In this document: in pieces, positions 14,977 through 36,249 of the stretch | How positions within the stretch are numbered: position 1 is the stretch's first letter | Layout of the letters: every line of letters begins with the position of its first letter | Source of the DNA: a virus | Virus record (IMG/VR): IMGVR_UViG_3300046809_000348 | Location: 1 to 46,590 of that record | Strand: one strand, 5' to 3' | Length of the DNA: 46,590 nucleotides | The notes under the pieces: model-generated | What the model was told of the DNA's origin: nothing | What the model saw: only the letters and a program-made list of their open reading frames with translations | Database searches by the model: none | Program-made: the position numbers and the translations under genes

Positions 14977-15320
14977 TTGAAACGATTCCGCACCGCGAGC
15001 AGCGCTACGATACCTGCGGCGACTGGCAGTTTGTCGACGGCGATCTGTTGATACGGGTCAGTGAGTTAGGCAATTGGCGGATGGAAATGCTGGTCGCGCG
15101 GCATGAGCTGGACGAGGCGCTGTTATGCAGGGCGCGCGGCATCGATCAGCAGTGGGTCGATGATTTTGATCAGAGGCATCCGGATCTCGATGAGCCGGGC
15201 GAAGACCCTGCCGCCCCGTATCATTGCGAGCACATGATCGCGTACGCGGCTGAGCTGACCTTGATGAGCCAGATTGGCGTCGATTTCGAGGAATATCGCG
15301 ATCGGCTGGCTGCCCTATGA
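14964..15320 (+). CDS. Conserved phage protein with HExxEA-like motif
   Basis: 118 residues of a type seen in many phages: an IPHREQRYDTCGDW opening, a basic-acidic strand region, ARHELDEALLCRARGI, then GEDPAAPYHCEHMIAYAAEL. The HELDEA helix with a later H-C-E-H is reminiscent of a metal site such as that of zincin-like peptidases, although a canonical HExxH is absent. Start ATG 14964 was chosen because the family begins near the IETIPH strand. It overlaps the ATP-grasp gene by four bases. No activity is known to me. Confidence 0.6.
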   Translation: MRVVIETIPHREQRYDTCGDWQFVDGDLLIRVSELGNWRMEMLVARHELDEALLCRARGIDQQWVDDFDQRHPDLDEPGEDPAAPYHCEHMIAYAAELTLMSQIGVDFEEYRDRLAAL

Positions 15321-16600: not shown

Positions 16601-17604
16601 CGTATGGCGTGCCGATCCCGGCCGGCGAACTCCAGTTCTGCGATGGGAACGGTCATCCGATCGCCGGCGGCTACGTCTATATGTACGAGGCGGGCACGAC
16701 GGCCCCGGCGATAACGTGGCAGGACGCCAATCGGACGACGCCGAATACCAACCCCATTCTGCTTGATGGCGATGGCCGCTGCCGCATCTGGGGGGCGGGT
16801 CAAACCTTATATCGTCAGGTGGTGCAGGATCGCGACAGCAACCTTTTATTTGATCAGCTGATCGGCTTCCCGGCAACCGATATCGTCGCGACCAGTCTCA
16901 CGGTCACCGGGGCGACGCAATTGGGCGACCTGACGGTTACCGGAGCGACACAGCTGGCCGGCCTAACGGCCGGAGCGACACAGCTGGCCAGCCTCGCGGT
17001 TACCGGGGCGACGCAATTGGGTCCCGACCTGCATGTTGCGGGCAGCGTTTTCGCCGATGGCGAGCTGACGGCCGGCCCGGATTCTGCTCACAAGATCGAG
17101 CTCGGGTGGTTTGGCAATGCCGCCTTTGTGAAGTTCAGAAAGGAGACCGGGCCCGGCACCGGAGACGGCATTGTGTTCGACCCCGCCACCGATGAATTCA
17201 GGTTCTTCTCTCCGGAAGGGAATGATTTCTTTATCGTAAACCCGAGCATTACTAGGTTTTATGCGGGCCTCGTAAGGATTTTCCACGATCTTACGGTTGA
17301 TGGCAGAGTATCGATTGGCGGCACTTCGTCAGACTTTTTCCTGGATTATCCGGGCGGGTCGGCTGAGATCCATTTGAGCCCCCTCGCCTCCATCCGCGTG
17401 ACCGGCGATGGTAAACTGCAGCTTATATTTAACGCGCAATCCAAGATGATTGTCGACGACGCGGGGGTGGGGTTCAACAGTCATAACCCGCCTGGGATTC
17501 CAACAATCACCGGCAGCGTCAGCGGCGCCACCGCGTCAGTCCTGACTCAGGTATTACAAATTCTCGACCAGCTCGGGCTAATTGTGGATGGAACGACGGC
17601 ATGA
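16597..17604 (+). CDS. Tail fibre or tailspike with virion-type N-terminal domain
   Basis: 335 residues, TTG start with a good AAGGAG (16583-16588) eight bases upstream. The first 90 residues (PIPAGELQFCDGNGHPIAGG ... YVYMYEAGTTAPAITWQDAN ... NPILLDGDGRCRIW) match a common N-terminal domain of phage tail fibres and tailspikes. A four-unit repeat (VTGATQLGDL type, about residues 100-145) forms a shaft, followed by a beta-rich region and a short helical C-terminus (LTQVLQILDQLGLI). Unlike the next nine genes it has no signal peptide, so it is the best candidate for the fibre actually assembled on virions in the cytoplasm. Confidence 0.75.
   Translation: MTYGVPIPAGELQFCDGNGHPIAGGYVYMYEAGTTAPAITWQDANRTTPNTNPILLDGDGRCRIWGAGQTLYRQVVQDRDSNLLFDQLIGFPATDIVATSLTVTGATQLGDLTVTGATQLAGLTAGATQLASLAVTGATQLGPDLHVAGSVFADGELTAGPDSAHKIELGWFGNAAFVKFRKETGPGTGDGIVFDPATDEFRFFSPEGNDFFIVNPSITRFYAGLVRIFHDLTVDGRVSIGGTSSDFFLDYPGGSAEIHLSPLASIRVTGDGKLQLIFNAQSKMIVDDAGVGFNSHNPPGIPTITGSVSGATASVLTQVLQILDQLGLIVDGTTA
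16901..17031 (+). repeat. Degenerate tandem repeat in the fibre shaft
   Basis: Four imperfect units of about 30-33 bases encode VTGATQLGDL, VTGATQLAGL, AGATQLASL and VTGATQLGPDL. The central two share the exact 19-base stretch cggagcgacacagctggcc (16941-16959 and 16971-16989). The array codes for a regular beta-shaft and could change length by slippage. Confidence 0.75.
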
Positions 17605-19391
17605 GATGGATCGGGACCTTTCTATTTGTGGTGGCCGGAATGATGGCCGCCCCGGCTTTGGCGCAAAGCCCGCCGACGCAGTGCTTGTCGATCGTGCAGG
17701 CGGGCGGGACCGGGGACGCGATCCAATTCCCGAAATTGCCGTGCTGGCCGACCACGACCATGACGATGATGTATGTGACGGGGAACAATATGACGGATTC
17801 CCCGATGATTTCGGTGTTGAATGCAGGCCCGGCGCTGCCTTTGGTGAATTTTGACGGAACGCCGTTGGCGCCGGGCGATCTGCTGGCCGGCGAGCACATT
17901 CTGCTGGGGTTTGACGGGGCGAAGTGGTTCACCCTGACCGGCCCGGCGACGGCAAAGCTGCCGCCGACGACATGTCCCGTCATCGACAGCTACGGTGGGT
18001 CGGGGGACAACACCGTTGATAATGTGGCGGCATTTAACGCCGCACTGGCGGCGCAGCCGGCGCTAACGAAGTGTGTGACGTTGGGGCGCGGCACTTATTA
18101 CTTCGGCTCGACAATTTCCATATCCTTGGCGGCCGGAGAAGCGATAACCGTGCAGGGACAGGGGCAGCAGGTTTCGGCTATGCGATGGCACGGAATCGAC
18201 GGGTTCCATTTCTCGCAGGGCAATCAGCAATCAGTCATACATTTCCGCAGCCTTACCGCACTCACCGACGTTTCCGACGGCGGCACGTGGGTAACAATGA
18301 CCGGCGTCGGCAATCAGCACCAGCCAACCTATTCAGATTTTACGGACGTAACGATCGCCGGGGATGATTACCTGGGTCACTGGTGGACAATGGGCGTACT
18401 GTCGAATTCCTGGGGAAATCTTAATTTCATCAACTTTGAGTATTGGGGCGCGACGCCAAACGTCCCGTTGGGGTGGGGCAACGGCTACTTTACTACAGTA
18501 GGGAAAGCGGTGGACCTTGAGGCCGACGCCGACAAGGTGTCGGTTGACTACAATTTCTTTAACCCAAACCTTAATTACGTTGGAACCGCAATTACCTACG
18601 GCAACAATGTTCAGGGCGTCAATGTAGTTGGCGGCAATATCGTTGGCGGCGATTATGGTATCTTTGTGCCGTTTAATGCCGACACCGGGACAGATCAGCT
18701 TACCATTACCGGGATAACTATTAGTGTGCGGACAGCAGATGTTCAGACGCTGCAAGGAGTGTTCGGCACCACTATATCTAATTCGTTTCTTACTTGCGGT
18801 CCAGGAGGCCCAGCCACACCATCAAGTCCCGGCCTGGGTATTGACCTAGAGGGCGCGAACTCGTTTTCGATAACCGGAAACGTCATAGAATGCGGTGACG
18901 CCGGCGTGGGCTATGGGAATGATATTGTGGTGGCCAATGGTGGTGGCGGAACTATAGTGGGAAATACTTTAGGAAATTCAGCGACGGCCATATGGTTGAA
19001 GGCCGCATCCAGCAATGTCTATGTCGCGAACAATTACTCACAAAACGTAACGAACAAGGTGCTGAATGACGGCACCAACAACTCGATAGATTATGACCGT
19101 ATTGGCCTAACGTTCAACAACGGGATAGCATTATTTGGCCGGGATACATCTGGTAGCCCGCACCCATTGATTTACCTGGACGGCCTAAATAACCTTGGTT
19201 TGTATAATGGCAAGGTCCAAGTGTACGATACTGGCGATTTAGGTTCTTCTGGGTCATTGTTGTCTAACGGCAATATCGCGCTCGACGGGACAGGCGGAGA
19301 CTTTATCGCTCACGGGCATGCGGGCCTTGACTGTTCGGGCACTCCCACCAGTGGTTTCGCGACCTCCTCTGGAATTGTAACTCACTGCTGA
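17601..19391 (+). CDS. Secreted beta-helix tailspike-like protein
   Basis: 596 residues. It begins with a Sec signal peptide: MRW, a hydrophobic core (IGTFLFVVAGMMAAPA), and an ALA cleavage site before QSPPTQ. After a small N-terminal beta domain comes a pectate-lyase-like parallel beta-helix from about residue 130 (DSYGGSGDNTVDNVAAFNAAL), the classical entry of phage spike helices. It continues through repeated N/G/V/I rungs (NVVGGNIVGGDYGIF; SITGNVIECGDAGVG) to a short C-terminal cap. The mature part holds eight cysteines. It overlaps the fibre gene by four bases. Likely a polysaccharide-binding or depolymerising spike; the export signal on such a protein is unusual. Confidence 0.75.
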   Translation: MRWIGTFLFVVAGMMAAPALAQSPPTQCLSIVQAGGTGDAIQFPKLPCWPTTTMTMMYVTGNNMTDSPMISVLNAGPALPLVNFDGTPLAPGDLLAGEHILLGFDGAKWFTLTGPATAKLPPTTCPVIDSYGGSGDNTVDNVAAFNAALAAQPALTKCVTLGRGTYYFGSTISISLAAGEAITVQGQGQQVSAMRWHGIDGFHFSQGNQQSVIHFRSLTALTDVSDGGTWVTMTGVGNQHQPTYSDFTDVTIAGDDYLGHWWTMGVLSNSWGNLNFINFEYWGATPNVPLGWGNGYFTTVGKAVDLEADADKVSVDYNFFNPNLNYVGTAITYGNNVQGVNVVGGNIVGGDYGIFVPFNADTGTDQLTITGITISVRTADVQTLQGVFGTTISNSFLTCGPGGPATPSSPGLGIDLEGANSFSITGNVIECGDAGVGYGNDIVVANGGGGTIVGNTLGNSATAIWLKAASSNVYVANNYSQNVTNKVLNDGTNNSIDYDRIGLTFNNGIALFGRDTSGSPHPLIYLDGLNNLGLYNGKVQVYDTGDLGSSGSLLSNGNIALDGTGGDFIAHGHAGLDCSGTPTSGFATSSGIVTHC

Positions 19392-19416
19392 GCCATAACC
19401 TAAGAGAGATCGATCT

Positions 19417-19767
19417 ATGAGAATAGCCACCATTTGTTGTGTTGTCGTCGCGATGATGGCGTCGGCGCTACCGGCGCTCGCGCAAGTGCCGATGACCGAA
19501 GAGCAGGCGCAGATGCAGTTGCAGATGGCGACGATCAATTACCAGCGTGTGTTGATGGAAAAACAGCAACGCAGCATTGTGGATTGGCAGAAGACTTTTG
19601 CCGCGTGGTGCGGCGCGCGCCCCGCGTGTGGGCTCACGGCCTCGCCCGCGGCACAGTCGAAGCCGCCGCTCGCGCATTCCGCTCCAAATACGCAATCGAA
19701 GTTGCCGCTCGGGCATTCCGTTCCGAACGATGTGAAACCGCCGCCGGGGGTTTCCCCAAAGAGGTAG
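19417..19767 (+). CDS. Small secreted protein with 13-residue repeat
   Basis: 116 residues. The Sec signal peptide (MRIATICCVVVAMMASALP) ends at ALA before QVPMTEEQ. A helical stretch (AQMQLQMATINYQRVLMEKQ) is followed by a CxxxxxC pair (WCGARPAC) and two tandem 13-residue units, QSKPPLAHSAPNT and QSKLPLGHSVPND, in a Pro-rich tail. No enzyme motif. Its place between two secreted fibre genes suggests an accessory or chaperone-like periplasmic role, which is inference. Confidence 0.65.
   Translation: MRIATICCVVVAMMASALPALAQVPMTEEQAQMQLQMATINYQRVLMEKQQRSIVDWQKTFAAWCGARPACGLTASPAAQSKPPLAHSAPNTQSKLPLGHSVPNDVKPPPGVSPKR
19654..19731 (+). repeat. Two 39-base tandem units
   Basis: Two adjacent imperfect 39-base units encode the QSKxPLxHSxPN repeat at the C-terminus of the small secreted protein. 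Differences are mainly substitutions, so the duplication is not very recent. Confidence 0.7.
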
Positions 19768-19769
19768 AT

Positions 19770-20555
19770 TTGCAACGATTTTTTGGGCTCGCGCTAGTAC
19801 TTTTGCTGGTGGTTGTTGGGTCCGCGTCGTCGCGGGCACAGCAAGCCTATCCGTTGCAGCCGTTTAGTTGCCCGGTTGGGCAATTCGCCTACTCGTTCAA
19901 CCCAAATGCATTCGGCTTGCCGGGCTGGGTTTGCTCCACGCCGTCCGGCAGCGGTGGTGGTGGCGGCGGCGGTGATGTCCTGGGCCCCGGATCGTCGATT
20001 AACAGTTACGTCCCGATATGGGTCGGGAACGGGGGCACCCAATTAGGCACCGGCTTGCCGGCGTACGTCTCGGTAAACGGCCATACGCTAATGCTCGGCG
20101 GCGCGCTGTCGCTGCAATTCAACGATTTCTCCGGACAGATTTCCGGGACGCAGATGCCCGCGGCGAGCGGCGACATCAATCGATCGGCAGGAGCGGTAAA
20201 CGAGACGGTCATTGGCTTCCAAGCTCGGCCGCTATCGGCAGCCGTGCCCACGTCGGGGCAACTAATGGGCTGGAATGGGTCAACTTGGGGGCCGGTGAAT
20301 GCTCCGGTGTCGGGCATCAACGCCTTGACCCAGGATGTCAGCGCCACCGGCACAGGCTCGCAAGCCGCGACTGTGGTCGGCCTTCAGACCCGGCCGGTTG
20401 CGACAACGGCCCCGACGGTGGGGCAATGCTTGATATGGGACGGGTCGCAGTGGGCTCCGGGGAGTTGCGGCGCCGCCCCCACGACGGGCGCGCTGCTGAT
20501 CGACACGGGCTCGGCATTTTTGATTCAAGCTGGAAGCAAGCTGCTCATCCAATGA
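19770..20555 (+). CDS. Secreted short fibre protein
   Basis: 261 residues from TTG 19770, two bases after the previous stop and preceded by AAGAGG. That start gives a clean Sec signal peptide (QRFFGLALVLLLVVVGSASS, cleavage after SRA before QQAYP); a longer frame upstream is a shadow. Mature parts are a CPVGQFAYSF ... GWVC loop, a seven-Gly linker, and a fibre repeat seen twice (VIGFQARPLSAAVPTSGQLM and VVGLQTRPVATTAPTVGQCL, each followed by a W-x-G-S-x-W-x-P turn). It ends GSAFLIQAGSKLLIQ. Four cysteines in the mature part. This is a typical phage fibre module carrying an atypical export signal. Confidence 0.7.
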   Translation: MQRFFGLALVLLLVVVGSASSRAQQAYPLQPFSCPVGQFAYSFNPNAFGLPGWVCSTPSGSGGGGGGGDVLGPGSSINSYVPIWVGNGGTQLGTGLPAYVSVNGHTLMLGGALSLQFNDFSGQISGTQMPAASGDINRSAGAVNETVIGFQARPLSAAVPTSGQLMGWNGSTWGPVNAPVSGINALTQDVSATGTGSQAATVVGLQTRPVATTAPTVGQCLIWDGSQWAPGSCGAAPTTGALLIDTGSAFLIQAGSKLLIQ

Positions 20556-21880
20556 AGGCGATGAACATGTTCAGAAAACTTTGGCTTGCGTTCGCCTTTA
20601 TCGGGCTTGCGGTTCCGGCGTGGGCGGACGGCACGATCAATACCATCGGCGGCGGCAGCGCGCTATCGGGTTCAGAACTGATCCCGATGTTTCAGGGCTC
20701 CAATCCGGCGGTCAGCACGACACCGTCGGCGATCGGCACCTATTACGGCGCCCTGAGCATTACCGAGACGAACAAGACGCTTACCAACCCCACGATCAAC
20801 GCCGCCACTTTGTCAGGCACGATTGCGGGGACTCCAACCTATTCCGGCGTGCCTCTCTATAGCGGCATCATAAGCGGAACCGTGGTTTCCGGCGGGTTCC
20901 TCGGGCTGGACTCAGGAAACCATCTCGTCAAAGCGACCCCGGCCGGGTCGAGTGACCTGTCGGGAATGACGATCGGGCAAGTGCCTATCGCCGCCACCGC
21001 CTCCACAGTCACCTCAAGCAAACCACTTGCCGGGAACGGCGCAAATGTAGCGACAGCCGCAGGGACGCTGACAAACGGGCACTGCGTGTCGATCGACTCT
21101 AATAGCAACTTTGTCGACGCCGGCGGCGCTTGCACCGTCGGCGGTGGCGGCGGCACGGTAAATGCCGGCACTTCCGGGCAGGTGGCGTACTACGCGAGCA
21201 GCACCAATGCGGTCAGTGGTTCGTCTGGCCTTGGGTTGTCGAGCACGCAAGTCACTTCAATGGCCGTTGGTCTCGGTTCTGACGCGACGGGCGACGTTTA
21301 CTATCGGAGCAGCGGCGGCGTCCTGACCCGACTCGGGATTGGCTCTACGGGGAACGTGTTAACGGTTGCCGGCGGCCTTCCAAGTTGGGCAGCCCCGGCG
21401 GCCAGCGGCCTGACGGTCGGCACAACCGCGATCACCTCCGGCACCAACTACGGGGTGCTGTTCAACAATACCGGTTCGGTGCTGGGCAATACCGGTGTCG
21501 GCACATCCGGGCAGGTGCTGACATCAAATGGCGCGGGAGTGGCCCCGACTTTTCAGGCGGCGGCGGGCGGCAACGCGACGGTCGCGACCGGGATCTCGGC
21601 CGCCGGGTCGAGTTACAGCGACGCGACGCATTTGACGGCGGATTGGACCGAGGTATCGACGGTTGGCTCAGGTCAGGGCGTGGTGCAGGAAACTCCGGTC
21701 GCCGGGAAAAGCCAGTTGGTCGCCAACAACAGCGCCACGACGCTGCTGGTATATCCGGTAACGGGAGCCAATTTCGATGCGTTGGCGTCATCTCCGGCCG
21801 GGGGCTCAGCCGTATCGGTCGGAGCGGGGGCGCGCGTGCTGATATTCTGCTTCACGACGACACACTGCGATACGAAGTAG
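20552..21880 (+). CDS. Secreted fibre protein, Gly/Ser/Thr-rich
   Basis: 442 residues, ATG overlapping the previous stop. The signal peptide (MKAMNMFRKLWLAFAFIGLA) is cleaved after AWA before DGTINT. The mature chain is a low-complexity beta-fibre with phage-fibre signatures: GSELIPMFQGSNPAVSTTPS, TNPTINAATLSGTIAG, and GTSGQVLTSNGAGVAPTFQA. The C-terminal domain (HLTADWTEVSTVGSGQGV ... LLVYPVTGANFDALA) is a common fibre-tip domain. Four cysteines. No catalytic signature. Probably a trimeric shaft with receptor- or glycan-binding tip. Confidence 0.7.
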   Translation: MKAMNMFRKLWLAFAFIGLAVPAWADGTINTIGGGSALSGSELIPMFQGSNPAVSTTPSAIGTYYGALSITETNKTLTNPTINAATLSGTIAGTPTYSGVPLYSGIISGTVVSGGFLGLDSGNHLVKATPAGSSDLSGMTIGQVPIAATASTVTSSKPLAGNGANVATAAGTLTNGHCVSIDSNSNFVDAGGACTVGGGGGTVNAGTSGQVAYYASSTNAVSGSSGLGLSSTQVTSMAVGLGSDATGDVYYRSSGGVLTRLGIGSTGNVLTVAGGLPSWAAPAASGLTVGTTAITSGTNYGVLFNNTGSVLGNTGVGTSGQVLTSNGAGVAPTFQAAAGGNATVATGISAAGSSYSDATHLTADWTEVSTVGSGQGVVQETPVAGKSQLVANNSATTLLVYPVTGANFDALASSPAGGSAVSVGAGARVLIFCFTTTHCDTK

Positions 21881-21891
21881 CGCGCGCTTAC

Positions 21892-24741
21892 ATGAACGTT
21901 ATCGCAGCCCTTCTACTACTTCTGCTCGGGCTGAGTTCGGCTCAGGCGCAAACTGCGGTCGCGCCGTCGCCGAGGGCCTACGGGCCACCGGTGAGTACGG
22001 CGTGGGTCGTCCTGACGCCCTCGGGCGGGGATGATACAGCCGCGATCCAGGCGGCCGTGACCAACAATCCCAGCGTCTGGCTCCAGCCGACCGCGGCGAG
22101 CAACGCGTTTGACGTGCGGTCTCAGATCACGGTTCCGAACAATCACGTGATCCAGGGGCCGGGCAATTGGGTTACTGCCCTACCCGGCGGCGCCAACATA
22201 AGCGAAGCAACAGTCGTCGTGCATTGCACGACGGCCTGCAACTTCCCGACCCAGCCAAATGGGGAGCCCGCTGGGTTCTTCGCGTTACAGGATCGAAACG
22301 TCCTTCGAGGATTTACAATATACGGGAATCGTTTAACCGGGGGCACCGAGAACTGCATTACTGCGTATAATAGCTCGGCTCCCGAAATTGATCATATGAT
22401 GCTGTATAATTGCTCCGTGAACGGTGTCGACAATTTTGCAAATAGATCATTTCCGGGGCAATCCTTAGATTACTCGCAGTACATGTGGCTACATGATACC
22501 CATATCTATCAGCCGGGGAACCTCTGCTACAGAGCAGATGGGAGCAATGGCGGTTTCGTCTCGGATGTCATCATTCGAAATAACGACTTGGCGCTCTGTA
22601 CTTATGGGTCAATGTACCTGCACGGTAGTTTCTTTACATCCCACATCGACGGCAACCGGATGGAAGACTTCTTTCCAGGAGTCATCTTAAATGGTGCGTC
22701 TGACGTTAGCTTTACCGGCAATCTTTGTGACAAGACTACTGCGTGCTTCTCGCTTACAAATTCTCAGAATATCTCGATCTCGGGAGGCCGGCTGAACACT
22801 TGGGATGTCGGCCATACTGCCGTCCCTTCTGCCAATGTCGAATTTGCCGGGACCAATTACAACATCTCTATCGCAGGCGTTGACGCTGAGGGAGGCGACC
22901 TTGGCGTCTTCAAGGTGTATGCGGGCGGAACCTGCATTGGGTGCTCGCTCCCGGCAGCGCCTCCCGCCGGCGCTACTTGGTATGCCGACGACTACACCCG
23001 CGACATCTTGGCTCCGCAATCGACCCCGCTGACCGGCGGACAGACTGTCGCGCCCACGGGCCTGACCCTGACGGGAACGAGCTTCAATGCCCCCGACCTG
23101 TCTGGGTACACGAACTTTAACATTTCCTTACTGGCGTCATCGTGCGTCAGCGGCGGCTGCACGCTGCCGGGACCGACCCAGCTCGGGATCGGGATTGGTC
23201 AAAAGTTTCGGCTGACATTTATCCAAGACCCGACGACTGGCGGCTCGACAATCAATTGGGGGCCGGAATACCTGAACACACCGACCCTATCGAGCGTCGC
23301 CGAGACCTTCGATACCGTGGACGCCACGGTCCTGGCTGGGGGCACCGTCCAGCTTGGCAACAGCGTCACATTTACCCAACCCAACGCTAACGAGTTGACC
23401 GGCGGCTCGGGGATGACGAGCGGCTGGGTCGGCTCGAACGCGACCCTGACCACCGGAACCGGGACTAACGCAAGCGGAGCGGCGTCGGCGGCGACTACGC
23501 TGATCGAAGATGCGACCGCGAATGTTTTGCACCGTATCGTCCAGACGAACACGACGGCAAATGGGGTGCGCACGCTCAGCGTCTATGTGGCGCCGCTTGG
23601 GGCCGGAGCGACACGTTACGTCAACTTAGGCGTGACTGATTCGGTCGTCGGTCAGTACGCCGCAGTAACGATAGCCCCGGATGGTTCTGGGATTGGTCCC
23701 AATATTCTTAACGCGGAGATACTTGCGCAGGGTGTTCAGCAGAGCAACCTAGGATGGACCCGCTATTACATGACATACAAGCTGAACAGCAGCTCCGGGC
23801 ATTCCCAGATTGTCGGTCTGTACAATCCGCAGCAGTCGAATACCCAATACAACGGTGATGGCGTCTCGGGGCTGAGGCTGTGGCAACCTGAGGACCGCGC
23901 CGGGACTTTCCCCGGCGCCGCCACGGTCAATGGCCTAGCGCCAGCCAATCCTACCGCGACCGCAGGGGCCGCGGCGGTTAACGGAACGGCGCTGACCTAC
24001 ATGCGCGCGGATGCGGCGCCTGCCGTCGCCAAGGCCGGACCCAGCACATTCGGCATCATGGAGCCGGACGGCTCGACGATAACCTGTCCGGCGGGGGTCT
24101 GTACCTCGATTGGCGGCGCGGCAACTAGCGTTGTCCAGGGCGTTACCACCGTAGGAGGCACCTGCCCATCGGGATACAACCTGTACAACAACAGCGGCAT
24201 CGTCGACTGCCAGAAGAATAGCGGGCTCATCGTAACCAAGACCGCCGTTTCCGGCGTCGACTCGGCGCTGACCTTCAACAGTACGGATTTCCCGGCCAGC
24301 AGTTACAATTCTTTGGAGTTTAGATGTGTCGGCATTGTCCCGTCGGCGGCAGGCACCTCGTTCGTTGCCGAGGTCGAGACCGGCGGCAGCACGTGGCAGG
24401 CCACCTCCTATTCGGTCGCAGGACAGTATGCAGGCTCGTCTTCCCCCAACTCGGGTTCCTTTGGAACCGCGGCGGCGACCGACATTATGGATGGGCAGAT
24501 GGGAACTCTCGGCACCTCGGCCTACGCCTCCCTTATGCTGACAATCGATTTCCCGAACGGGTCTGCGGCGCATAAGACGATATCCTGGAAGACAAACAAT
24601 GTCTTTAATACAGACGGGCTGCTCTACTATTACACAGGATTAAGCTCCTGGACGGGCAGCAATGCTGCGCTGACCGGTTTTCGGCTGCGGTCAACAACAA
24701 ACACCTTCGCCGGCGTTTGTTCAGAATCGGGATCAAACTGA
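21892..24741 (+). CDS. Secreted beta-helix spike with carbohydrate-binding region
   Basis: 949 residues. The Sec signal peptide (NVIAALLLLLLGLSSAQA) is followed by QTAVAPSPRAYGPPVST. Residues about 40-380 form a pectate-lyase-like beta-helix (SGGDDTAAIQAAVTNN entry, then rungs such as ISGGRLNTWDV). About 490-680 is a jelly-roll region resembling fibre carbohydrate-binding modules (ELTGGSGMTSGWVGSNATLT ... GLRLWQPE). Then follows the fibre repeat ANPTATAGAAAVNGTALTYM and a C-terminal tip domain. Eighteen cysteines, many in short pairs (HCTTAC, CIGC, CVSGGC, CPAGVC), which fits oxidative folding outside the cytoplasm. Probable polysaccharide lyase or hydrolase spike. Confidence 0.72.
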   Translation: MNVIAALLLLLLGLSSAQAQTAVAPSPRAYGPPVSTAWVVLTPSGGDDTAAIQAAVTNNPSVWLQPTAASNAFDVRSQITVPNNHVIQGPGNWVTALPGGANISEATVVVHCTTACNFPTQPNGEPAGFFALQDRNVLRGFTIYGNRLTGGTENCITAYNSSAPEIDHMMLYNCSVNGVDNFANRSFPGQSLDYSQYMWLHDTHIYQPGNLCYRADGSNGGFVSDVIIRNNDLALCTYGSMYLHGSFFTSHIDGNRMEDFFPGVILNGASDVSFTGNLCDKTTACFSLTNSQNISISGGRLNTWDVGHTAVPSANVEFAGTNYNISIAGVDAEGGDLGVFKVYAGGTCIGCSLPAAPPAGATWYADDYTRDILAPQSTPLTGGQTVAPTGLTLTGTSFNAPDLSGYTNFNISLLASSCVSGGCTLPGPTQLGIGIGQKFRLTFIQDPTTGGSTINWGPEYLNTPTLSSVAETFDTVDATVLAGGTVQLGNSVTFTQPNANELTGGSGMTSGWVGSNATLTTGTGTNASGAASAATTLIEDATANVLHRIVQTNTTANGVRTLSVYVAPLGAGATRYVNLGVTDSVVGQYAAVTIAPDGSGIGPNILNAEILAQGVQQSNLGWTRYYMTYKLNSSSGHSQIVGLYNPQQSNTQYNGDGVSGLRLWQPEDRAGTFPGAATVNGLAPANPTATAGAAAVNGTALTYMRADAAPAVAKAGPSTFGIMEPDGSTITCPAGVCTSIGGAATSVVQGVTTVGGTCPSGYNLYNNSGIVDCQKNSGLIVTKTAVSGVDSALTFNSTDFPASSYNSLEFRCVGIVPSAAGTSFVAEVETGGSTWQATSYSVAGQYAGSSSPNSGSFGTAAATDIMDGQMGTLGTSAYASLMLTIDFPNGSAAHKTISWKTNNVFNTDGLLYYYTGLSSWTGSNAALTGFRLRSTTNTFAGVCSESGSN

Positions 24742-26126
24742 TGAACAAAGGATTGCTCGGCGGCATCACCGTCTGCGTCTTGTTTTGGGCGCTGGTTTTC
24801 CTTTGCGTCCACCTCGCCTTTGCTCAGACCGTCGCGCCGGCGCCGGGAACCTATGGCCCCGGTGTTTCGACAACCACTACGGTCAACGGCACCGCCTGTG
24901 CCCTTGGCGGCTCGTGCTCACCAAGTGGCTCGACCTTCGCAAATCCGTCGGCGGTCGCAAGCGACACGGCCAATAACGGTAGCGCTACAACGGCGATGCG
25001 CTCGGATGCCTCGCCTGCCGTGCAGAAAGCATCGAACGCGCAGTTCGGGCTTGCCAAGGGCGACGGGGTGACGATTGACTGCGGAACTGTTGCCGGGACT
25101 TGCGCCAGCGCTGCAGGCGTAACCAATGCGACGACCAGCACGGCGGGGACCGGGGCATCGCCGACCATCGCGCAATTCGACGCCGGCTGGTACAAGAATC
25201 TTCTCGCTGGCAGCCTGACGGCAACAATCCCTGTTTCGACATCGCTGTCGATCTATGGTGGCGTGTTCGTCGCCGGCATTAACGCGGGAACGATCGCAGC
25301 GACTTCGCCAGATACGATTACATCGGCTGCGGGAACAACCGGCCCGGGCGGGAATATTGCCGTTGATGCCGGTTGCAACGCGACAGTTACGACCAACGGA
25401 GCTGGCAATCTGTACGTCGCGGGCAATCTATGCAATGCGACAGGGGCTGCCTTTAGCGCTCTGACTTCTGGCACGAACACGATCGCCGCGATGGTCCTCG
25501 GCACCGGGGCATCGATGTCGTTTGCCGGGGCGACTCTGCCAACTCCAGGGGCTGGCGTCCTTGGCATCGCAGGCGAAGCCACAAAGCCGACCCTCGCAGC
25601 TAACGGTGAGGGCGCCGTTTGGCTGGATTCAACAACTGGCGGGCTGGGGCTGATCGGCAAAGGTTCCGGCAGCGACGTCTCGATGTACAACAGTGCTGGT
25701 ACGCTTGGTTGCGCGATAGCGACAGGAACCACGACCCTCTCTTGTGTCGGGCTTCAGGGCGGCACTTTGACGGCGACGGGGGTCACGACAGTAGCTACCG
25801 TCGAGGGCGCAGAGCGCACGGTGACGGCGGGCTCGACCGACACCTTGCTCTCGACCGATTGCGGCAAGACAGTTCTTTACAACAATGCGGCCTATACGGT
25901 GACGATCCCGGCCGCGATTGTGCCGCCAGCAGGGACGAGCTGCCAGATCGATATTGTGACCGATACCGCCAACAAGGTGACGGTTACGGGAACGGCGGTC
26001 AGCGCGGCGACTTTGGTCAGCGCCGATAGCTACACCGGGACGCGAAACCTGGCTGGGGCGGGGATTTCTCTAAAGCTGATTAACGATGGCGCAGCCAAAG
26101 CATATCTGTTTGGGTTCGGCTCATGA
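24741..26126 (+). CDS. Secreted fibre protein with shared mature N-terminus
   Basis: 461 residues from ATG 24741, overlapping the previous stop (TGATG). The signal peptide (ITVCVLFWALVFLCVHLAFA) is followed by QTVAPAPGTYGPGVST, nearly the mature N-terminus of the preceding spike. The repeat SDTANNGSATTAMRSDASPA and QKASNAQFGLAKGDGVTIDC is a well-known fibre module. The C-terminal domain (ERTVTAGSTDTLLSTDCGKT ... YTVTIPA ... TVTGTAV) is a common fibre tip. Ten cysteines in the mature part. No catalytic motif seen. Confidence 0.7.
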   Translation: MNKGLLGGITVCVLFWALVFLCVHLAFAQTVAPAPGTYGPGVSTTTTVNGTACALGGSCSPSGSTFANPSAVASDTANNGSATTAMRSDASPAVQKASNAQFGLAKGDGVTIDCGTVAGTCASAAGVTNATTSTAGTGASPTIAQFDAGWYKNLLAGSLTATIPVSTSLSIYGGVFVAGINAGTIAATSPDTITSAAGTTGPGGNIAVDAGCNATVTTNGAGNLYVAGNLCNATGAAFSALTSGTNTIAAMVLGTGASMSFAGATLPTPGAGVLGIAGEATKPTLAANGEGAVWLDSTTGGLGLIGKGSGSDVSMYNSAGTLGCAIATGTTTLSCVGLQGGTLTATGVTTVATVEGAERTVTAGSTDTLLSTDCGKTVLYNNAAYTVTIPAAIVPPAGTSCQIDIVTDTANKVTVTGTAVSAATLVSADSYTGTRNLAGAGISLKLINDGAAKAYLFGFGS

Positions 26127-27400
26127 TCTGGCGCGTTTTGGCACTCTCGTTACTATTGGGAGCGCAGGTCGCATCTGCTCAAGTCGGCAATGTCGGGGGG
26201 CCTTCGTATGGCTTTAATGCTGTCCCGAACACGATTACGGGGATCAACCTCAGCGCCTCAACCTTCACAAGCGCGGCAGCCAGCGGCACTGTGATCGGGA
26301 TGCCCTCGGCGACGGTCTCGGGCGGGTCGTTTACGGGGACGATCACGGTTGCTGCAAGCCGCACGACATGTAGTCCGGCGTCGCAATCGAATACATCATA
26401 TTTTCAGAAGCCGTCCACTTCGCTTGAGACGAACGGCATCCTCTATGCGGGCACCTATCACGTCTGCCTGACCGCAACCGATGCGGCCTTCACTAATTCG
26501 CCAGCTTCGTTCTTGGTCGCGGTGACGGGGACCGGAACGGCGTGCTCGCAGGCCGTGGCATTTTTGGGCCGGAGCGATGTCACCGCTCTCTCGCTCGACG
26601 AGGTTCACACCAACGGCTACGTCAACCTGATCTGCAACATGGTGACGCACGGCCTGATCAACGCCAGCGCCACGATGATCAGCACCGGCGGCACGCACGC
26701 CTATTGCGGCCTGCCAACCGGGGGAGCTGCCGAGTTCGATTTCTTGCACATCGAGGCGACGCAGACAGCGGCTGCGGCGCTGATCGATATTTGCAATCAC
26801 TATCCGCTGACTGCGCACGGCTCGCCCACCTTCACGGCGGATTCGGGGTATCTCGGCGTTGATGCAAGCGCGACGGTCTATCTGGACCCCGTCTATGCTG
26901 CGAATACTGCCGGCGGCTGGTACCTAAAGGATGACGCGCATCTTGCGGCGTGGTCATTCACAAACGCTCTCTCCGGCGTCTCCGGGGGCGTCGTGATTGG
27001 TGGAGCGGCCAACACCGGCGCCGGCAGCTCGGGCATCACGCCTCGATACAATGACGGAACCGCGCAATGTCAGATAAATTCTCTTGGTGCTGCGTCGGTC
27101 AATATAACCCAAGCAGACAGCTTGGGATTTTACCTCTGTACGCGCGTAGCCGCATCCGGCGCGGGGGCTGTCGTTTCTTACCGCGCCGCCGCATCGATCG
27201 GCTCGGGTACGGGGTCAAGCAACACCGTCATGGGGGCGGCCGCGGTTTTGGTCATTCATGAAGCCTCGGGGGTAGATAGCGGCGGCGCCTACGTCATCGG
27301 CCTGGACAGCGCTGGAGCGAGCTTTACCTCAACCGACGAGGGGCATTACTATAACGACGTTTGCAGCTACTGGATGACGCCCGTTCATGGGTCATGCTGA
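26123..27400 (+). CDS. Secreted beta-sandwich protein
   Basis: 425 residues, start overlapping the previous stop by four bases. Signal peptide MIWRVLALSLLLGAQVASA, then QVGNVGGPSYGF. The N-terminal 130 residues look like an immunoglobulin-type or cadherin-like domain (YAGTYHVCLTATDAAFTNSP). The remainder resembles a lectin- or laminin-G-like jelly roll (GGWYLKDDAHLAAWSFTNAL; GFYLCTRVAASG). Ten cysteines in the mature part, ending in a C-terminal Cys. Carbohydrate binding is plausible but not shown. Confidence 0.62.
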   Translation: MIWRVLALSLLLGAQVASAQVGNVGGPSYGFNAVPNTITGINLSASTFTSAAASGTVIGMPSATVSGGSFTGTITVAASRTTCSPASQSNTSYFQKPSTSLETNGILYAGTYHVCLTATDAAFTNSPASFLVAVTGTGTACSQAVAFLGRSDVTALSLDEVHTNGYVNLICNMVTHGLINASATMISTGGTHAYCGLPTGGAAEFDFLHIEATQTAAAALIDICNHYPLTAHGSPTFTADSGYLGVDASATVYLDPVYAANTAGGWYLKDDAHLAAWSFTNALSGVSGGVVIGGAANTGAGSSGITPRYNDGTAQCQINSLGAASVNITQADSLGFYLCTRVAASGAGAVVSYRAAASIGSGTGSSNTVMGAAAVLVIHEASGVDSGGAYVIGLDSAGASFTSTDEGHYYNDVCSYWMTPVHGSC

Positions 27401-27407
27401 TTACCGC

Positions 27408-29417
27408 ATGGCAAAGTACCTCGCTCTCGCCATTGGGATCACACTTGCGCTCTGCGGCTTTAGTGTTTTCAGGGGCGGCACCGCACCGCCGCCTATCGTC
27501 TTTTCGCTCGCAACGAATAGCCCGGCCGGCAACGACAGCAACGCGGGGACGGCGGCGAGCCCGTTTCTGACTCCTGCCAGGGCGCAGACCGCGGCACGAG
27601 CGGCGATCACCGCCGGGCGCTGCCCGATTGTCGAGGCACGCGGCGGGGCTACACCTTACTTCATGAGCGCGGCCCTCGCGTTAACCTCAGCCGACAGCGG
27701 CAGCGGATGCACGATCAGGTGGCAAACCTACCCCGGCGACAGTCCGGCAGAGCTGTCGGGCGGCAAGCTCGTTACGTCGAGTTTTGTGCTCTGCACCACG
27801 GCAAGCGTACCATGCCAGGCCGGGGCCGCGGGGATCTACCAAACCGACTTGACCAGCCAGAGCCTGACGCCGGTACTTGACATATATGTCAACGGGACGC
27901 GCTACGAGCCGGCGGCGAGCCCGCTGTTCCCGGCCGGGTGGACACTCAACACGAACGTCAATCTGACCGCCCCCGGTAGCTCGGGGTGCTCGGGAACCTC
28001 GCTCGCCGGCTGCACCAACCAGAGCGAAATCCACATCCGCGCCTCGACCGATTTCACGTATGGGGATTTCAAGGTCGCCTCGGTTGCGGGAACCGCCATT
28101 ACGCCAGCCGGAACCGGCTTTGCAAACTTTCAGGCCGTTGAAAGTTTCGGCAACTTCCATCCGCGCGTCATCCAGGTCTACAACGCATTTGAGCTGCTGA
28201 CGGCGGCGAATTGTCAGGCTATAGGCGCTACGCCCTCGTCGACCGGCGGATGCTTCTATTGGAATCGCTCGACGAATCTCCTGTACGTGCTGCCGATATC
28301 AGGCGTCAATATGGCGACCGCGACGGTGATCATTCCGCAGCTTACCACGCTGATGACGGGGACCGGTGCGCACCACATCGCCTTTTCGAATCTTATTCTT
28401 GAACATGAGGCGTCGACGCAGTTCGACAGCAGCTATGGGTTTGCTACGGCGTTCGTGAACGCGCTGTGCGGGCCGGTCCCAAATTGCACCAGCATCACCG
28501 ATGCGGGCAATCCGAATATGCCGGCGGCCATCACCTTCGATGGCGCATCGCACGACATCAGCTTCACGAACACGGCGATCTCCCACAATGCCGATCGCGG
28601 GCTGTGGTTCAAAGAGGGGTTTCAGCACGCGTCGGTAACGCTAAACCAGTTTCTTGATAATGGCGGCGGCGCCTGGCAATTCGGCGGGCGCAACGACGGA
28701 AACCAATCGAACGCTGCGTTACAGACTTGCTGCGGGGACTTTGAGAATAACCAAGTAGACGGAGAATATCAGTTTCACGGCGTCGCGCCCGTTGCCGCAG
28801 GCTATTACCGCGACACGGTGATTTCGCACAACGCTTTACTCGGTTACGGTGTGCTTGGTACGGGCTTCGGTTTTTATTACATACCAGTACATATCGGCTG
28901 GATCGGAGCGGCGAGCGATACGCCCGGCTATACCGCCAATAACACGACCAATTACAACCAGGTGCTGGGAGCTTGCCAGGGATCGAACCAGGGAGCCTCG
29001 CCCAATACCGCGACCGACTGCGCTGCCTTTCATTCCAATGGCGCAGAATTGAACAGTTTTGCTGAATTTAACGACTTCCAGCACATGGGGACCAGTCTGC
29101 AAACCTGCCTTTATCTTGACAACGCAACGAGCAATCTTACTGCAGAGTTCAACGATTGCGCGTACGGTGGCGGCACAAGTGGGTGGGCCTTTATCAACAG
29201 CACGAACGGTGGACCGCTTCTCGCCACAGGCAACACGGTAACAAACAACTGCAATGGCCTTACCTCTACTGGATTTACAGATTTTGGGACCAGCAATACT
29301 ACGAGTCCAAACTACAATTACACGAGCGGCAGCCCGCCTTCCACGCATCCGCCAACACCATCGTGTACCGAAATCATCGCTGGGGCGGGGGTTGTTGGCT
29401 CGCCCGGCCCGCACTGA
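27408..29417 (+). CDS. Exported right-handed beta-helix protein
   Basis: 669 residues from ATG 27408; ATG 27387 in the same frame is possible but would bury the hydrophobic N-terminus MAKYLALAIGITLALCGF. This could be a Sec signal, an anchor, or a lipoprotein signal with an imperfect lipobox (LALC). Next comes SLATNSPAGNDSNAGTAASP, the usual opening of right-handed beta-helix lyases. Rungs run through AITFDGASHDISFTNTAISH and ENNQVDGEYQFHGV. A Pro/Ser/Thr-rich tail ends the chain. Eighteen cysteines follow the hydrophobic segment. Probable polysaccharide-degrading spike. Confidence 0.68.
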   Translation: MAKYLALAIGITLALCGFSVFRGGTAPPPIVFSLATNSPAGNDSNAGTAASPFLTPARAQTAARAAITAGRCPIVEARGGATPYFMSAALALTSADSGSGCTIRWQTYPGDSPAELSGGKLVTSSFVLCTTASVPCQAGAAGIYQTDLTSQSLTPVLDIYVNGTRYEPAASPLFPAGWTLNTNVNLTAPGSSGCSGTSLAGCTNQSEIHIRASTDFTYGDFKVASVAGTAITPAGTGFANFQAVESFGNFHPRVIQVYNAFELLTAANCQAIGATPSSTGGCFYWNRSTNLLYVLPISGVNMATATVIIPQLTTLMTGTGAHHIAFSNLILEHEASTQFDSSYGFATAFVNALCGPVPNCTSITDAGNPNMPAAITFDGASHDISFTNTAISHNADRGLWFKEGFQHASVTLNQFLDNGGGAWQFGGRNDGNQSNAALQTCCGDFENNQVDGEYQFHGVAPVAAGYYRDTVISHNALLGYGVLGTGFGFYYIPVHIGWIGAASDTPGYTANNTTNYNQVLGACQGSNQGASPNTATDCAAFHSNGAELNSFAEFNDFQHMGTSLQTCLYLDNATSNLTAEFNDCAYGGGTSGWAFINSTNGGPLLATGNTVTNNCNGLTSTGFTDFGTSNTTSPNYNYTSGSPPSTHPPTPSCTEIIAGAGVVGSPGPH

Positions 29418-29435
29418 TGCCTATGGAACGCCCTG

Positions 29436-32400
29436 ATGACTGATCTCACCCGCCGACAACTGCTGCAGACGACCGCAGCCGGAGCGGTCCTGGCGATGCT
29501 GCCCGAGACGGCCGAGGCGGGGTTCGGGCTCTTTCGGGGTGGCGCTGCGGTCTCGACAACCAACGGCACGACCGCGCAGGCGGCGGAGATGGTCTCCGAT
29601 ATGAACCACCGCATCTCCTTCGATGGGTTCTCGACCCTGTTCCTGCCGCCGTGGAACCAAGGGGCGAGCCAGGGCGACAACCCCGGCGCGCAGTATTCGT
29701 CGCAGGACACGCTGGCGGCAGGCTCGTTCCCGACGACGATGACCTTAGTGCAGGACGGCACGATCGCCGGCGGGGTGCCGACGCAGAGCTTTGGCTGGGT
29801 GTTCCGTCCCGGCGACATCCCGGCCGGCAATGTCCCGGTCTTTACCGGGCCGGGGGCGATCGTCTGGGGCTTCTCGGCAGGGCTGTGGGTCTATTGGCCG
29901 GACGGCTCGCTCAGATGGGCCGCGTTCGCATTGATGCCGCCGACGGGCTTTGCTCCGGCGCTCAACTCAACGACCACGATTGCGATCTCGAATGGCGGAG
30001 CTGGAACCTGGCCGGCCTCCTCGCGCACCCTCAGCGAGGTGTACGCCCAAAACCTGGCCGTCAACGGGTTGGCCCCGGTATCGTTCACCGTTCCGCACAA
30101 CGCGCGCTCGGCGAGCATGTACGCGCTGCTGAACGGCGACTCGAACCAATATTATGCCGTCAAGGACCTCGATGGGGCGGCTGGGGCGCGCTGGACGATC
30201 AAGACCAAGATGCAGGCGACCACGACGGCGAACGGGACGCCCGACCCGCAATTTGTCGTCACGCATCGCATCTTTGCGCTGAACACCCCGTCGGGAGCGC
30301 TCGCCGGGTTCCGCTGGTTTGGGGAAATCCGCAACCCGTTTTACAACGACTCGACGGGCGCCAAGCTCTATCAGGTGTTCGAACCGCCGAACAGCGGGAC
30401 GCCATCAGCCGGCCTCAACTGGCAGACGGTCGGACCTGGCGGCAGCGGGACAGTGAACAATCGGCCAATCGTTCCAGGCGATGCGCCCGCACCGTTCTTT
30501 AATGGCGCAAAAGACTTCACGGGGTCGATCAGCGGCAGCGTCTTGACCGTCACCGGCGGTTCAGTGCCGACCGGGTTCCTGACGGTCGGAGCGGTCGTCA
30601 CCGCCCAGTGGACCGGTTCGCAGCCGCTGGTCGTCACCGGGTGGGACTCATCGATGCCATCGATGACGAAGGCGCTGTTCCTCTTCCCTGATGGAACGGT
30701 CACATACTGCGTCCCGGACACGGCGCCGCCCGACGGCGGGAATGGCAATTGGTCTCCCTATATCGCGCCGGCGCCTTTTGGGCCATCTCAGATCGTGGTC
30801 AGCAACACGATCGCTACCGCCGGCACGGGCGGGGGCCTGTTCGACGGCGGCGCCCTCACGGGACAATACCAGATCGACTACCAGTTGACGGTTGCGGGCG
30901 GGGATCTGCCGGGGCAGCGCGGCACCTATCAACTCTCGGGAACGGGACCAACGTCAATATCCGCGCGGGCAATGACCTATTGGTCAGGATACTACGTATA
31001 TAGTCGGACGACCCCATCGGGCTATTATAGCGGCGGCAAGCAGGGCAATGTAGTGCCCTGCGTTTTAACTGGCACTCTACCGTCGACAAGCTTCTACGGC
31101 GGCACCAGTCCATGTGACGGGACTAATGGTAGTGTTGTCTGGCCCGTCTTTGGGGGAATTCAGTATAGACTAATGCCGGCCACATACATTCCGCCCAACG
31201 GCATAGTCTATAACGATGTTGCGATCGGGACGCTGACGCCCGTTCCGGCCTTCGCGCCATTTACCCGCTTCAACATGGCGACGGCTGAAGGCAAGTATAA
31301 CTTTTTCCAAGGCGCTGGCTCGGTCGCGGCCGACACGACCTTGCGGGTTCAGATCAACCAGACCTATTGGAACTCGACCGGCACCTTTATGCCGATGGAT
31401 ATGAGCGTGATCGGCGGCCCGATGTGGCCGTTGCCCGACACGCCGTGGCAATATCCGTGGAATCCTTACACGGTGACGGATGTCAGAACAGCCGACATCG
31501 GCACGGGCGGCCCGCCGGTCGAGGTCGGCCTGATGTGCAACGTTGCCGGCTGGGACTTCTACATCCAGACCAAGCAATCCGACATCTGGAACCGCGCGTT
31601 TGGGCTGTCGCCGGGGACGATGTACTGCGACTTCAAGGACGGAACGGCTGGGAGCTACTTTGATCGCCTGCTGGTCATGAACGGCCCCGGCGGCAGTTAT
31701 GCAAACATGCCGCCATTCCGCGACTCGCCTTACATTGCGTGTCCCAATGGGCCTAGCGGCGGGCCGGGCAACGGCCTCGGTTTTTCCAATCAGCCGCCGC
31801 CAGGCTGCTCGACGAGCGGCCTATGTGAGCCGTCGCACGAACCTGACCTGTGTCAGTGGGCTTACATGCGTTTTGGCGAGGTGCAGTATTTTGACTACAT
31901 GTGCGAGTGGGCGCAGACAAGCACCCAAACGGTGTTCAATTCAAGCAACGAGCTTTCATCGCCACCCTATCCATACCCAACTTGGGCAAGCTCAATCTAT
32001 GCAGGTCAGTACCGGGCAACCGGCTGGGCGACGCGCGATGTTTGCCAGGCCGCGTTTTGGTGCTCGCACGATCCGAGCGGAAATGTCAGTAACCCCGTGT
32101 TCTCGGATGGCAGCGAGTTGCAGAAGTACCTCCTTGACCAAGCCAACGCCCAAACGGCATTCGCTATTGCGATGATGGACAGCGCCAGTGCGACGCTGTG
32201 GGGCAGCCAAGAAGGGGCCGACTATATCAAGGCGTCCGGTATGTGGGCGCCAAAATATACCGCCTCAAACCCCGCCGGCATCGCCGGTATGCAGATGTGG
32301 CAGTCAGCCTATACTGCGGGCGGGATAATGCCGTCGGCGTTGCGCGGGGACCCCAACGCGATCGATTTTATCAAGCGCTGGATGGGCTTCCTCGATCGTA

Positions 32401-33074
32401 TCGGCAACAACACGATGCTGAAGGGCAACAGCGCAAATGCCTATGTCTATCATTTTTGCCTTGGCGAAACGATTGTTATTCAACCGCCCGGCACCAACAA
32501 TCAGTTTACTGGCCAAGGAGCATACCCGCCAATCACGCGAGACGAGCAGTACGGCGGCCTCGGCTCATGTTTTTCCACGAATACCAATGCGATCATATCT
32601 TACGTTCCCAACGTAAACTTGCCCGACACGACGACGGTCGTGCGCAACGCCTTCACAATGACGATTAATCCCGGCGGTGTTGGCGCCCCGACCCTCGGCA
32701 ACGGCGACTTTTTCTTTGCCTACGCCAGCGAGTATGTGACTGGTCCGGTTCACCCCGGCCTCATCCCCTCGGCCATGACGCAGTGTACCGTGCCGTACTT
32801 TGTTCGCGATTGGACGAATGTGGGCGGGAACACCTACAGCTTCAACGTCGCGACCTCGCCCGGTGGCGCGGCTATTCCGATCGTCGACACCAGCGCCGGC
32901 GGCTTGGGGCCAATGGATGGACTTTGGCATTGCGCAACGCCAGGGGTCGACAACGGCGTGAGCAACGCTTTCATCTGCCAGGTCCGCAACACGGTCTGCT
33001 GGATACACGCGATCGGTTCGGGACAGGCGACCAACCCCGGCCACAACGCCAACCAGTTCGCGGGCTTCACGTAA
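29436..33074 (+). CDS. Giant Tat-signal protein, lyase-like
   Basis: 1,212 residues, the largest gene here. The N-terminus MTDLTRRQLLQTTAAGAVLA followed by an AEA cleavage site before GFGLFRGG is a twin-arginine (Tat) signal. Residues about 75-160 contain WVFRPGDIPAGNVPVF and YWPDGSLRWAAFALM, reminiscent of the N-terminal domain of PL26/YetA-like rhamnogalacturonan lyases; this link is tentative. A fibre-type segment (FTGSISGSVLTVTGGSVP) lies near 360. The last 400 residues are helix-rich with many aromatics (QWAYMRFGEVQYFDYMCEWA) and could form an alpha/alpha barrel. Eighteen cysteines, all after residue 400. A Tat signal on a phage gene is highly unusual. Confidence 0.65.
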   Translation: MTDLTRRQLLQTTAAGAVLAMLPETAEAGFGLFRGGAAVSTTNGTTAQAAEMVSDMNHRISFDGFSTLFLPPWNQGASQGDNPGAQYSSQDTLAAGSFPTTMTLVQDGTIAGGVPTQSFGWVFRPGDIPAGNVPVFTGPGAIVWGFSAGLWVYWPDGSLRWAAFALMPPTGFAPALNSTTTIAISNGGAGTWPASSRTLSEVYAQNLAVNGLAPVSFTVPHNARSASMYALLNGDSNQYYAVKDLDGAAGARWTIKTKMQATTTANGTPDPQFVVTHRIFALNTPSGALAGFRWFGEIRNPFYNDSTGAKLYQVFEPPNSGTPSAGLNWQTVGPGGSGTVNNRPIVPGDAPAPFFNGAKDFTGSISGSVLTVTGGSVPTGFLTVGAVVTAQWTGSQPLVVTGWDSSMPSMTKALFLFPDGTVTYCVPDTAPPDGGNGNWSPYIAPAPFGPSQIVVSNTIATAGTGGGLFDGGALTGQYQIDYQLTVAGGDLPGQRGTYQLSGTGPTSISARAMTYWSGYYVYSRTTPSGYYSGGKQGNVVPCVLTGTLPSTSFYGGTSPCDGTNGSVVWPVFGGIQYRLMPATYIPPNGIVYNDVAIGTLTPVPAFAPFTRFNMATAEGKYNFFQGAGSVAADTTLRVQINQTYWNSTGTFMPMDMSVIGGPMWPLPDTPWQYPWNPYTVTDVRTADIGTGGPPVEVGLMCNVAGWDFYIQTKQSDIWNRAFGLSPGTMYCDFKDGTAGSYFDRLLVMNGPGGSYANMPPFRDSPYIACPNGPSGGPGNGLGFSNQPPPGCSTSGLCEPSHEPDLCQWAYMRFGEVQYFDYMCEWAQTSTQTVFNSSNELSSPPYPYPTWASSIYAGQYRATGWATRDVCQAAFWCSHDPSGNVSNPVFSDGSELQKYLLDQANAQTAFAIAMMDSASATLWGSQEGADYIKASGMWAPKYTASNPAGIAGMQMWQSAYTAGGIMPSALRGDPNAIDFIKRWMGFLDRIGNNTMLKGNSANAYVYHFCLGETIVIQPPGTNNQFTGQGAYPPITRDEQYGGLGSCFSTNTNAIISYVPNVNLPDTTTVVRNAFTMTINPGGVGAPTLGNGDFFFAYASEYVTGPVHPGLIPSAMTQCTVPYFVRDWTNVGGNTYSFNVATSPGGAAIPIVDTSAGGLGPMDGLWHCATPGVDNGVSNAFICQVRNTVCWIHAIGSGQATNPGHNANQFAGFT

Positions 33075-35994: not shown

Positions 35995-36249
35995 ATGAAA
36001 TCACTCGCAGCACTAGCTTTAGTAATAGCTCTAGCGTCAACCGGAGCGGCGCAGGCGGCAACGATGCTCAGCGATCGACAGATGGACACCGTCACCGCCG
36101 GTGACTTTACGGCGGATGCGACAGCCCAAGCATTCGGCGCCGTCACCGCCACGTCGACGCTAACATCGATTTTTCCTTCGACGCTCAACGGCAACCCGGT
36201 GACGGGCTCGATGTCAACGGCCTCGGCGTCGAGTTATTCGCCTCCCTAA
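35995..36249 (+). CDS. Small secreted peptide with LSDxQMDxVTAG motif
   Basis: 84 residues with AAGGAG (35982-35987) eight bases before ATG. Sec signal peptide MKSLAALALVIALASTGAAQ, cleaved after AQA. The mature start carries LSDRQMDTVTAG, a motif I know from small exported proteins of unknown function in alphaproteobacteria such as Bradyrhizobium relatives. The rest is Ala/Thr/Ser-rich. This is likely host-derived cargo. Upstream in-frame codons are noise, since the ribosome site and signal peptide fix the start. Confidence 0.65.
   Translation: MKSLAALALVIALASTGAAQAATMLSDRQMDTVTAGDFTADATAQAFGAVTATSTLTSIFPSTLNGNPVTGSMSTASASSYSPP

Follow-up and report, generated by a model that had tools for sequence, protein, structure and literature searches.

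A block of nine consecutive genes lying directly behind the tail module of the window (the whole stretch analysed here, a 46.6-kb virus record) encodes proteins that begin with export signals. We propose, with moderate confidence and from sequence evidence, that these are fibre- or tailspike-like proteins which would be exported through Sec or Tat, folded with disulfide bonds in the periplasm, and docked on spike-less particles when the cell lyses. The parts of this proposal differ in strength: that the proteins are exported and carry disulfides appears very likely from their sequences, while the chance that such proteins in general join virions at lysis seems to us about even.

The gene content of the window is that of a P22-like podovirus, including portal (PF16510, 1e-49), coat (PF11651, 4e-46), head closure (phrog_578, 3e-78) and DNA-ejection (phrog_598) genes. 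Its virion module closes with an ATP-grasp-like gene and then a fibre gene at 16597, whose product has the only match in the window to a P22-type head-binding domain; none of the nine exported proteins has one. Many viral contigs have a GARS-like ATP-grasp protein next to the fibre region (309 confirmed stretches), and this protein served as the query for finding related loci. The nine genes listed by the first-pass annotation do exist, all on the + strand between 17601 and 33074 and tightly packed, neighbouring genes being separated by -4 to +25 nt (Table 1).

Table 1. Predicted exported proteins of the window and the two genes in front of them (score, rule-based Sec score; Cys, cysteines after the signal).
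Feature	Position	Strand	Signal (score)	Cys	Other properties
ATP-grasp/GARS-like gene	15317..16600	+			PF02843 1.5e-13; conserved, precedes fibre region
Fibre with tailspike head-binding domain	16597..17604	+	no signal peptide		TTG start; head-binding profile 7e-15; PDB 9vyg 0.002
Exported protein 1	17601..19391	+	Sec, MRWIGTFLFVVAGMMAAPALA, cleavage predicted before Q (7.64)	8	no family match
Exported protein 2	19417..19767	+	Sec (7.83)	2	small, coiled-coil-like; positional counterpart in G008
Exported protein 3	19770..20555	+	Sec	4	TTG start; phrog_9627 (3e-8) and a tail-fibre phrog (0.006)
Exported protein 4	20552..21880	+	Sec (8.42)	4	post-signal motif DGTINT..GSELIPMFQG
Exported protein 5	21892..24741	+	Sec (7.61)	18	beta-helix-like; orthologue in L218
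Exported protein 6	24741..26126	+	Sec	10	both ends conserved, middle swapped
Exported protein 7	26123..27400	+	Sec	10	post-signal motif QVGNVGGPSYGF
Exported protein 8	27408..29417	+	weak Sec or anchored start (5.64)	18	start at 27387 or 27408; FxxFRGGTA after signal
Exported protein 9	29436..33074	+	Tat-type, LTRRQLLQTTAA..AEA	18	1,212 aa; Tat start kept in L218 orthologue
Further exported protein	34960..35805	+	Sec (8.33)	2	CBM60 (PF16841 1.6e-12) and collagen-like repeat
Further small exported protein	35995..36249	+	Sec (8.63)		

Sec signals were scored by a rule-based score devised for this analysis, in which values of 7 or more count as strong. As had been claimed from the first inspection of the sequence, the first seven of the nine products reach this value and display the Sec hallmarks (basic n-region, hydrophobic core, A-x-A site). 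Control rates were far lower, with such values for 0.5% of shuffled N-termini, 0 of 4055 internal positions and none of the 21 upstream virion-core genes (7/9 vs. 0/21, Fisher p = 2e-5). The start at 27408 had been described as of Sec or lipoprotein type: it is indeed hydrophobic and scores as a weak Sec signal, but we reject the lipoprotein assignment, as a leucine before Cys16 means that the standard lipobox is not matched. Its positional counterpart in contig L218 has a clear Sec signal (score 7.6). The Tat-type start ascribed to 29436 is probable, with a TRRQLLQ...AEA pattern that recurs in the L218 orthologue; the matches of the two starts to PF10518 (E = 0.015 and 0.003, respectively) lie below the cut-off. 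Sec and Tat-type starts occur side by side within one block, and the limit of nine proved too narrow, as two genes further downstream also encode signalled proteins. A short motif, FxxF(R)GG(A/T)A, stands directly behind the signal of 27408 and 29436 and of L218:7869 and L218:9608, on unrelated bodies and after either kind of signal, Sec or Tat; it may be a shared docking or anchoring peptide.

An even cysteine count has been used as a criterion for exported disulfide proteins (PMC7678975). All 10 window proteins counted have an even number, and across the window and its relatives mature exported proteins are even in 38 cases and odd in three, compared with 64 and 93 among unsignalled neighbours (p = 4e-10). 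Restricting the comparison to proteins with at least two cysteines leaves 38:2 against 64:47 (p = 3e-6), and cysteine density is 15.7 per 1000 aa in the exported set versus 5.4 in the unsignalled one. Nine of 10 proteins were even in a contig fetched after the parity test, and in one of the odd-count cases, the L028 spike described below, the odd cysteine falls in a C-terminal hydrophobic segment. The parity test uses N-termini solely to choose the set and to place the cleavage point, which was set by hand for 27408, 29436 and 19770. Together with the head-binding domain found behind a signal in relatives, even parity supports export by evidence that is independent of the N-termini.

The bodies of these proteins had been called ordinary fibre, beta-helix and tip modules, which was an overstatement. 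Pfam, PHROGs and NCBIfam revealed little about them: the fibre description stands for 19770 (Table 1), 21892 has a sub-threshold Beta_helix match, and apart from 19770 none of the nine reaches a family above the cut-off. The C-terminus of 19770 also resembles that of an exported G008 gene, which there has an ATG start. Tat protein 29436 has a weak PcRGLX-like domain (PF19501, 0.005, below the cut-off). A single-sequence AlphaFold model of mature 17601 had a pLDDT of 35, and we claim no fold for it. Searches of the same three databases found neither a lysozyme or amidase domain nor a spanin architecture among the nine.

The ATP-grasp query retrieved 80 viral loci and one locus in an alphaproteobacterial MAG. 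Around the ATP-grasp gene, in the relatives and the window together, Sec scores of at least 7 are concentrated downstream (31/475, compared with 3/536 upstream; p = 5e-8). Contigs L010, L028, L013, L011 and L009, as well as G006, G008 and G005, have exported genes or runs of their own, while in many other related contigs the fibre has no signal. The run in contig L189 (G008) starts with a head-binding adaptor; then come a small protein, a protein with a 19770-like ending and a fibre with the DGTINT..GSELIPMFQG motif of 20552 behind its signal, all four of them signalled, and after these two proteins with twin-arginine starts, an order much like that of window genes 19417–21880 plus 29436. In contig L218 (G397) the block is collinear with that of the window: 21892, 24741, 26123, 29436 and the downstream gene 34960 have orthologues there, and 27408 has a positional counterpart. 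Between the two 21892 proteins identity is 71%, and 16 of 18 cysteines are kept; their signals are identical at just six of 22 positions yet remain signals. In the 29436 pair the Tat start is retained, although identity over the matched body is about 26%. Throughout the block, the signal and a short post-signal motif are conserved and the body is exchangeable; receptor-binding proteins are usually organised in this way, with a conserved start and a body that can be exchanged. The G397 block lies beside another virion module, with an LPD38 protein and with neither a head-binding gene nor an ATP-grasp relative, both of which could fall outside this contig, cut as it is at its ends.

Recurrence of this kind, together with signals retained despite divergence, even cysteine parity and the presence of Sec beside Tat, gives good support to the earlier claim that the set as a whole is exported. 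The signal-plus-fibre arrangement, for which a search of phage genomes had been proposed, recurs in IMG/VR contigs; no cultured relative carries it, and searches of cultured phages found no relatives of 21892, 24741, 29436 or the exported virion gene of G006. IMG/VR scans returned no relatives of 17601 or 29436; the L218 orthologue of the latter was found separately.

Several other genes in these contigs deserve mention. Directly after the major capsid gene, L186:315-1118 (G006) and L190:15019-15825 (G009) encode a product that has four cysteines and a Sec signal and may be an exported head decoration protein; the positional counterpart L188:2373-3197 has two cysteines and no signal. L191:11898-13286 (G005), signalled and with eight mature cysteines, lies within the virion module, with adaptor-like genes on one side and head genes on the other. 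The exported block of L010 contains an Acyl_transf_3 gene (16865-17791; PF01757, 8e-20), and enzymes of this type can alter surface glycans. Finally, the terminase-like gene L219:541-2970 (G397) is split at the Walker A motif by an insert that resembles an intein and weakly matches LAGLIDADG (0.001).

In many relatives the N-terminal domain of the first fibre follows the pattern LxPxPVQxFxDNNGxPLxGGKLFTYAAGTTTK, and in L013, L028, L030, L031, L010 and L094 this same domain stands directly behind a Sec signal. Compared with PDB sequences, the exported domain matches 7eeq (5e-11) and Pan3 9vyg (1e-11). An AlphaFold (AF2) model of the L013 copy (pLDDT 94.8) is matched by Foldseek to the head-binding domains of Pan3, Pam1 and P22, with 9vyg, 7eeq and 1lkt among the matches. 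By sequence and by predicted fold, then, the signalled domain of these relatives is a tailspike head-binding domain. Whole-contig searches found one head-binding gene per contig, so that, as far as the contigs reach, no unexported copy accompanies the exported spike.

The signalled copies also differ within the domain. Their xxGG turn becomes CxGC in four of six cases, versus none of 97 unsignalled copies (Fisher p = 3e-6, a value to be read with relatedness in mind, as a tree-corrected sign test falls short of significance because the supported changes are few). On the tree the signal requires seven changes, at least three of them on supported branches, and CxGC travels with the signal. A blind IMG/VR-wide search for CxGC yielded five new contigs, four with clear signals (scores 8.96 for two identical ones, 8.95 and 7.92) and a fifth, L167, with a hydrophobic start and a weak cleavage site (5.86). 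All 13 head-binding copies examined in cultured-phage records are without signal and without CxGC, and in 385 bacterial genomes of a single class the domain was matched eight times, never with a signal. Another motif, CxLGGSC, was dropped as a general mark of export, its search having given just two distinct proteins. The exported tailspike L028:11369-12778 carries a Peptidase_S74 domain (2.5e-8) near its end; the C-terminal hydrophobic segment and RRRR behind this domain may be a releasable membrane tether, which self-cleavage would remove.

The idea that the exported proteins are virion parts accordingly fares well in the relatives, where the signal precedes the contig's sole head-binding domain, and less well in the window, where the head-binding fibre 16597 has no signal. 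Signals, cysteine parity, the head-binding domain behind a signal and recurrence can all be read directly in these genomes; from them we infer cleavage, late timing, periplasmic oxidation and docking. Late in infection, the fibre- and tailspike-like proteins would leave the cytoplasm through Sec, and one of them through Tat; their signals would be removed, and disulfide bonds would form as the proteins fold in the oxidising environment of the periplasm. Once lysis opens the inner membrane, exported spikes would meet spike-less particles assembled in the cytoplasm and dock. This last step is suggested by the relatives, where the P22-type tailspike of the virion is itself the exported protein. 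P22 spikes attach last and add to spike-less heads in vitro, which makes late docking from the periplasm feasible. In L028, S74 self-cleavage could release the finished spike from the inner membrane. The window's nine proteins would have to dock through some other partner, as 16597 stays unexported. More tentatively, these contigs may belong to a class of phages that finish their virions outside the cytoplasm, with spikes exported through Sec or Tat, oxidised and trimerised in the periplasm, and docking only at lysis.

The most serious alternative, which we regard as less probable though well within reach, is that the exported set never forms part of the virion and is instead secreted or held at the surface, where it binds or cuts glycans and so frees progeny from slime, strips receptors or masks the cell against superinfection. 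The occurrence of the sister block in G397 beside different virion genes raises this possibility for the window set, as does the unexported state of 16597. The exported CBM60 protein just downstream, with its G397 orthologue, and the weak PcRGLX-like domain of 29436 fit secreted glycan-binding or -cutting tools, and the acyltransferase gene inside the L010 block is of a kind that alters surface glycans. Such a role leaves unexplained, however, why the sole head-binding domain on the relatives' contigs bears a signal and why 19770 matches a fibre module.

That the block is host-type cargo of a temperate phage, encoding lysogen surface proteins (lysogenic conversion), is improbable: exported adhesin-like proteins are known prophage cargo, but these genes follow the tail genes directly and are so tightly packed that they overlap by up to 4 nt, and the head-binding domain is scarce and always unsignalled in the bacterial genomes searched. 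Slightly more improbable still is that the hydrophobic starts are uncleaved virion peptides, such as membrane-insertion tips. Hydrophobic segments do occur in some virion proteins, and signal cleavage is a prediction here, but the basic n-regions, the A-x-A sites, a Tat start among Sec starts, signals that diverge in their letters while keeping their type, and even cysteine counts all speak against it. Chance or wrong gene starts, to which the TTG start of 19770 and the weak score of 27408 might point, are in the main refuted by the shuffled and internal controls and by recurrence in independent contigs.

If export followed by docking at lysis is correct, these phages would form a recurrent class with exported, disulfide-bonded spikes and a two-compartment assembly route. 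Before docking, their disulfide-stabilised spikes might also occupy or trim the surface of the host, and they would offer a source of stable receptor-binding proteins. A signal with an even number of cysteines, or CxGC in the head-binding domain, would mark such phages in genome data, and the role of spikes in the envelope before lysis would become directly testable.

The usual view is that the tail fibres of tailed phages are assembled in the cytoplasm, and in the literature searched, which is a part of what exists, we found no description of exported tail fibres or of tailed-phage spikes exported in series. The closest comparison is with the tailspikes of P22 (gp9) and of cyanophages Pam1 and Pan3, which share the head-binding domain of the relatives' exported copies in sequence and fold; the position after the ejection-protein module is the same, and the window has a P22-type portal and coat. 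While known P22-type tailspikes begin directly with this domain and have no signal, as in the 13 cultured-phage copies, the exported copies have a Sec signal in front and usually a CxGC turn. SAR endolysins, spanins and other exported lysis proteins likewise use host Sec before lysis, but those are lysis proteins, whereas here fibre- and tailspike-like proteins of up to 1,200 aa occur in series and no lysis domain was found in them. The L028 spike shares Peptidase_S74 near its end with endosialidase-type tail fibres, in which it acts as an intramolecular chaperone, and differs from them in its Sec signal in front and its hydrophobic segment and RRRR behind. In branched podovirus receptor-binding systems, a short head-binding adaptor precedes fibres whose short starts are conserved and whose bodies are exchangeable; the adaptor-plus-fibres layout would be alike, the difference being that all or most members are exported here. 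P22-type tailspikes, Sec and Tat signals and S74 domains are thus all familiar constituents, and the new element, as far as can be judged from sequence, would be the export of spikes in series.
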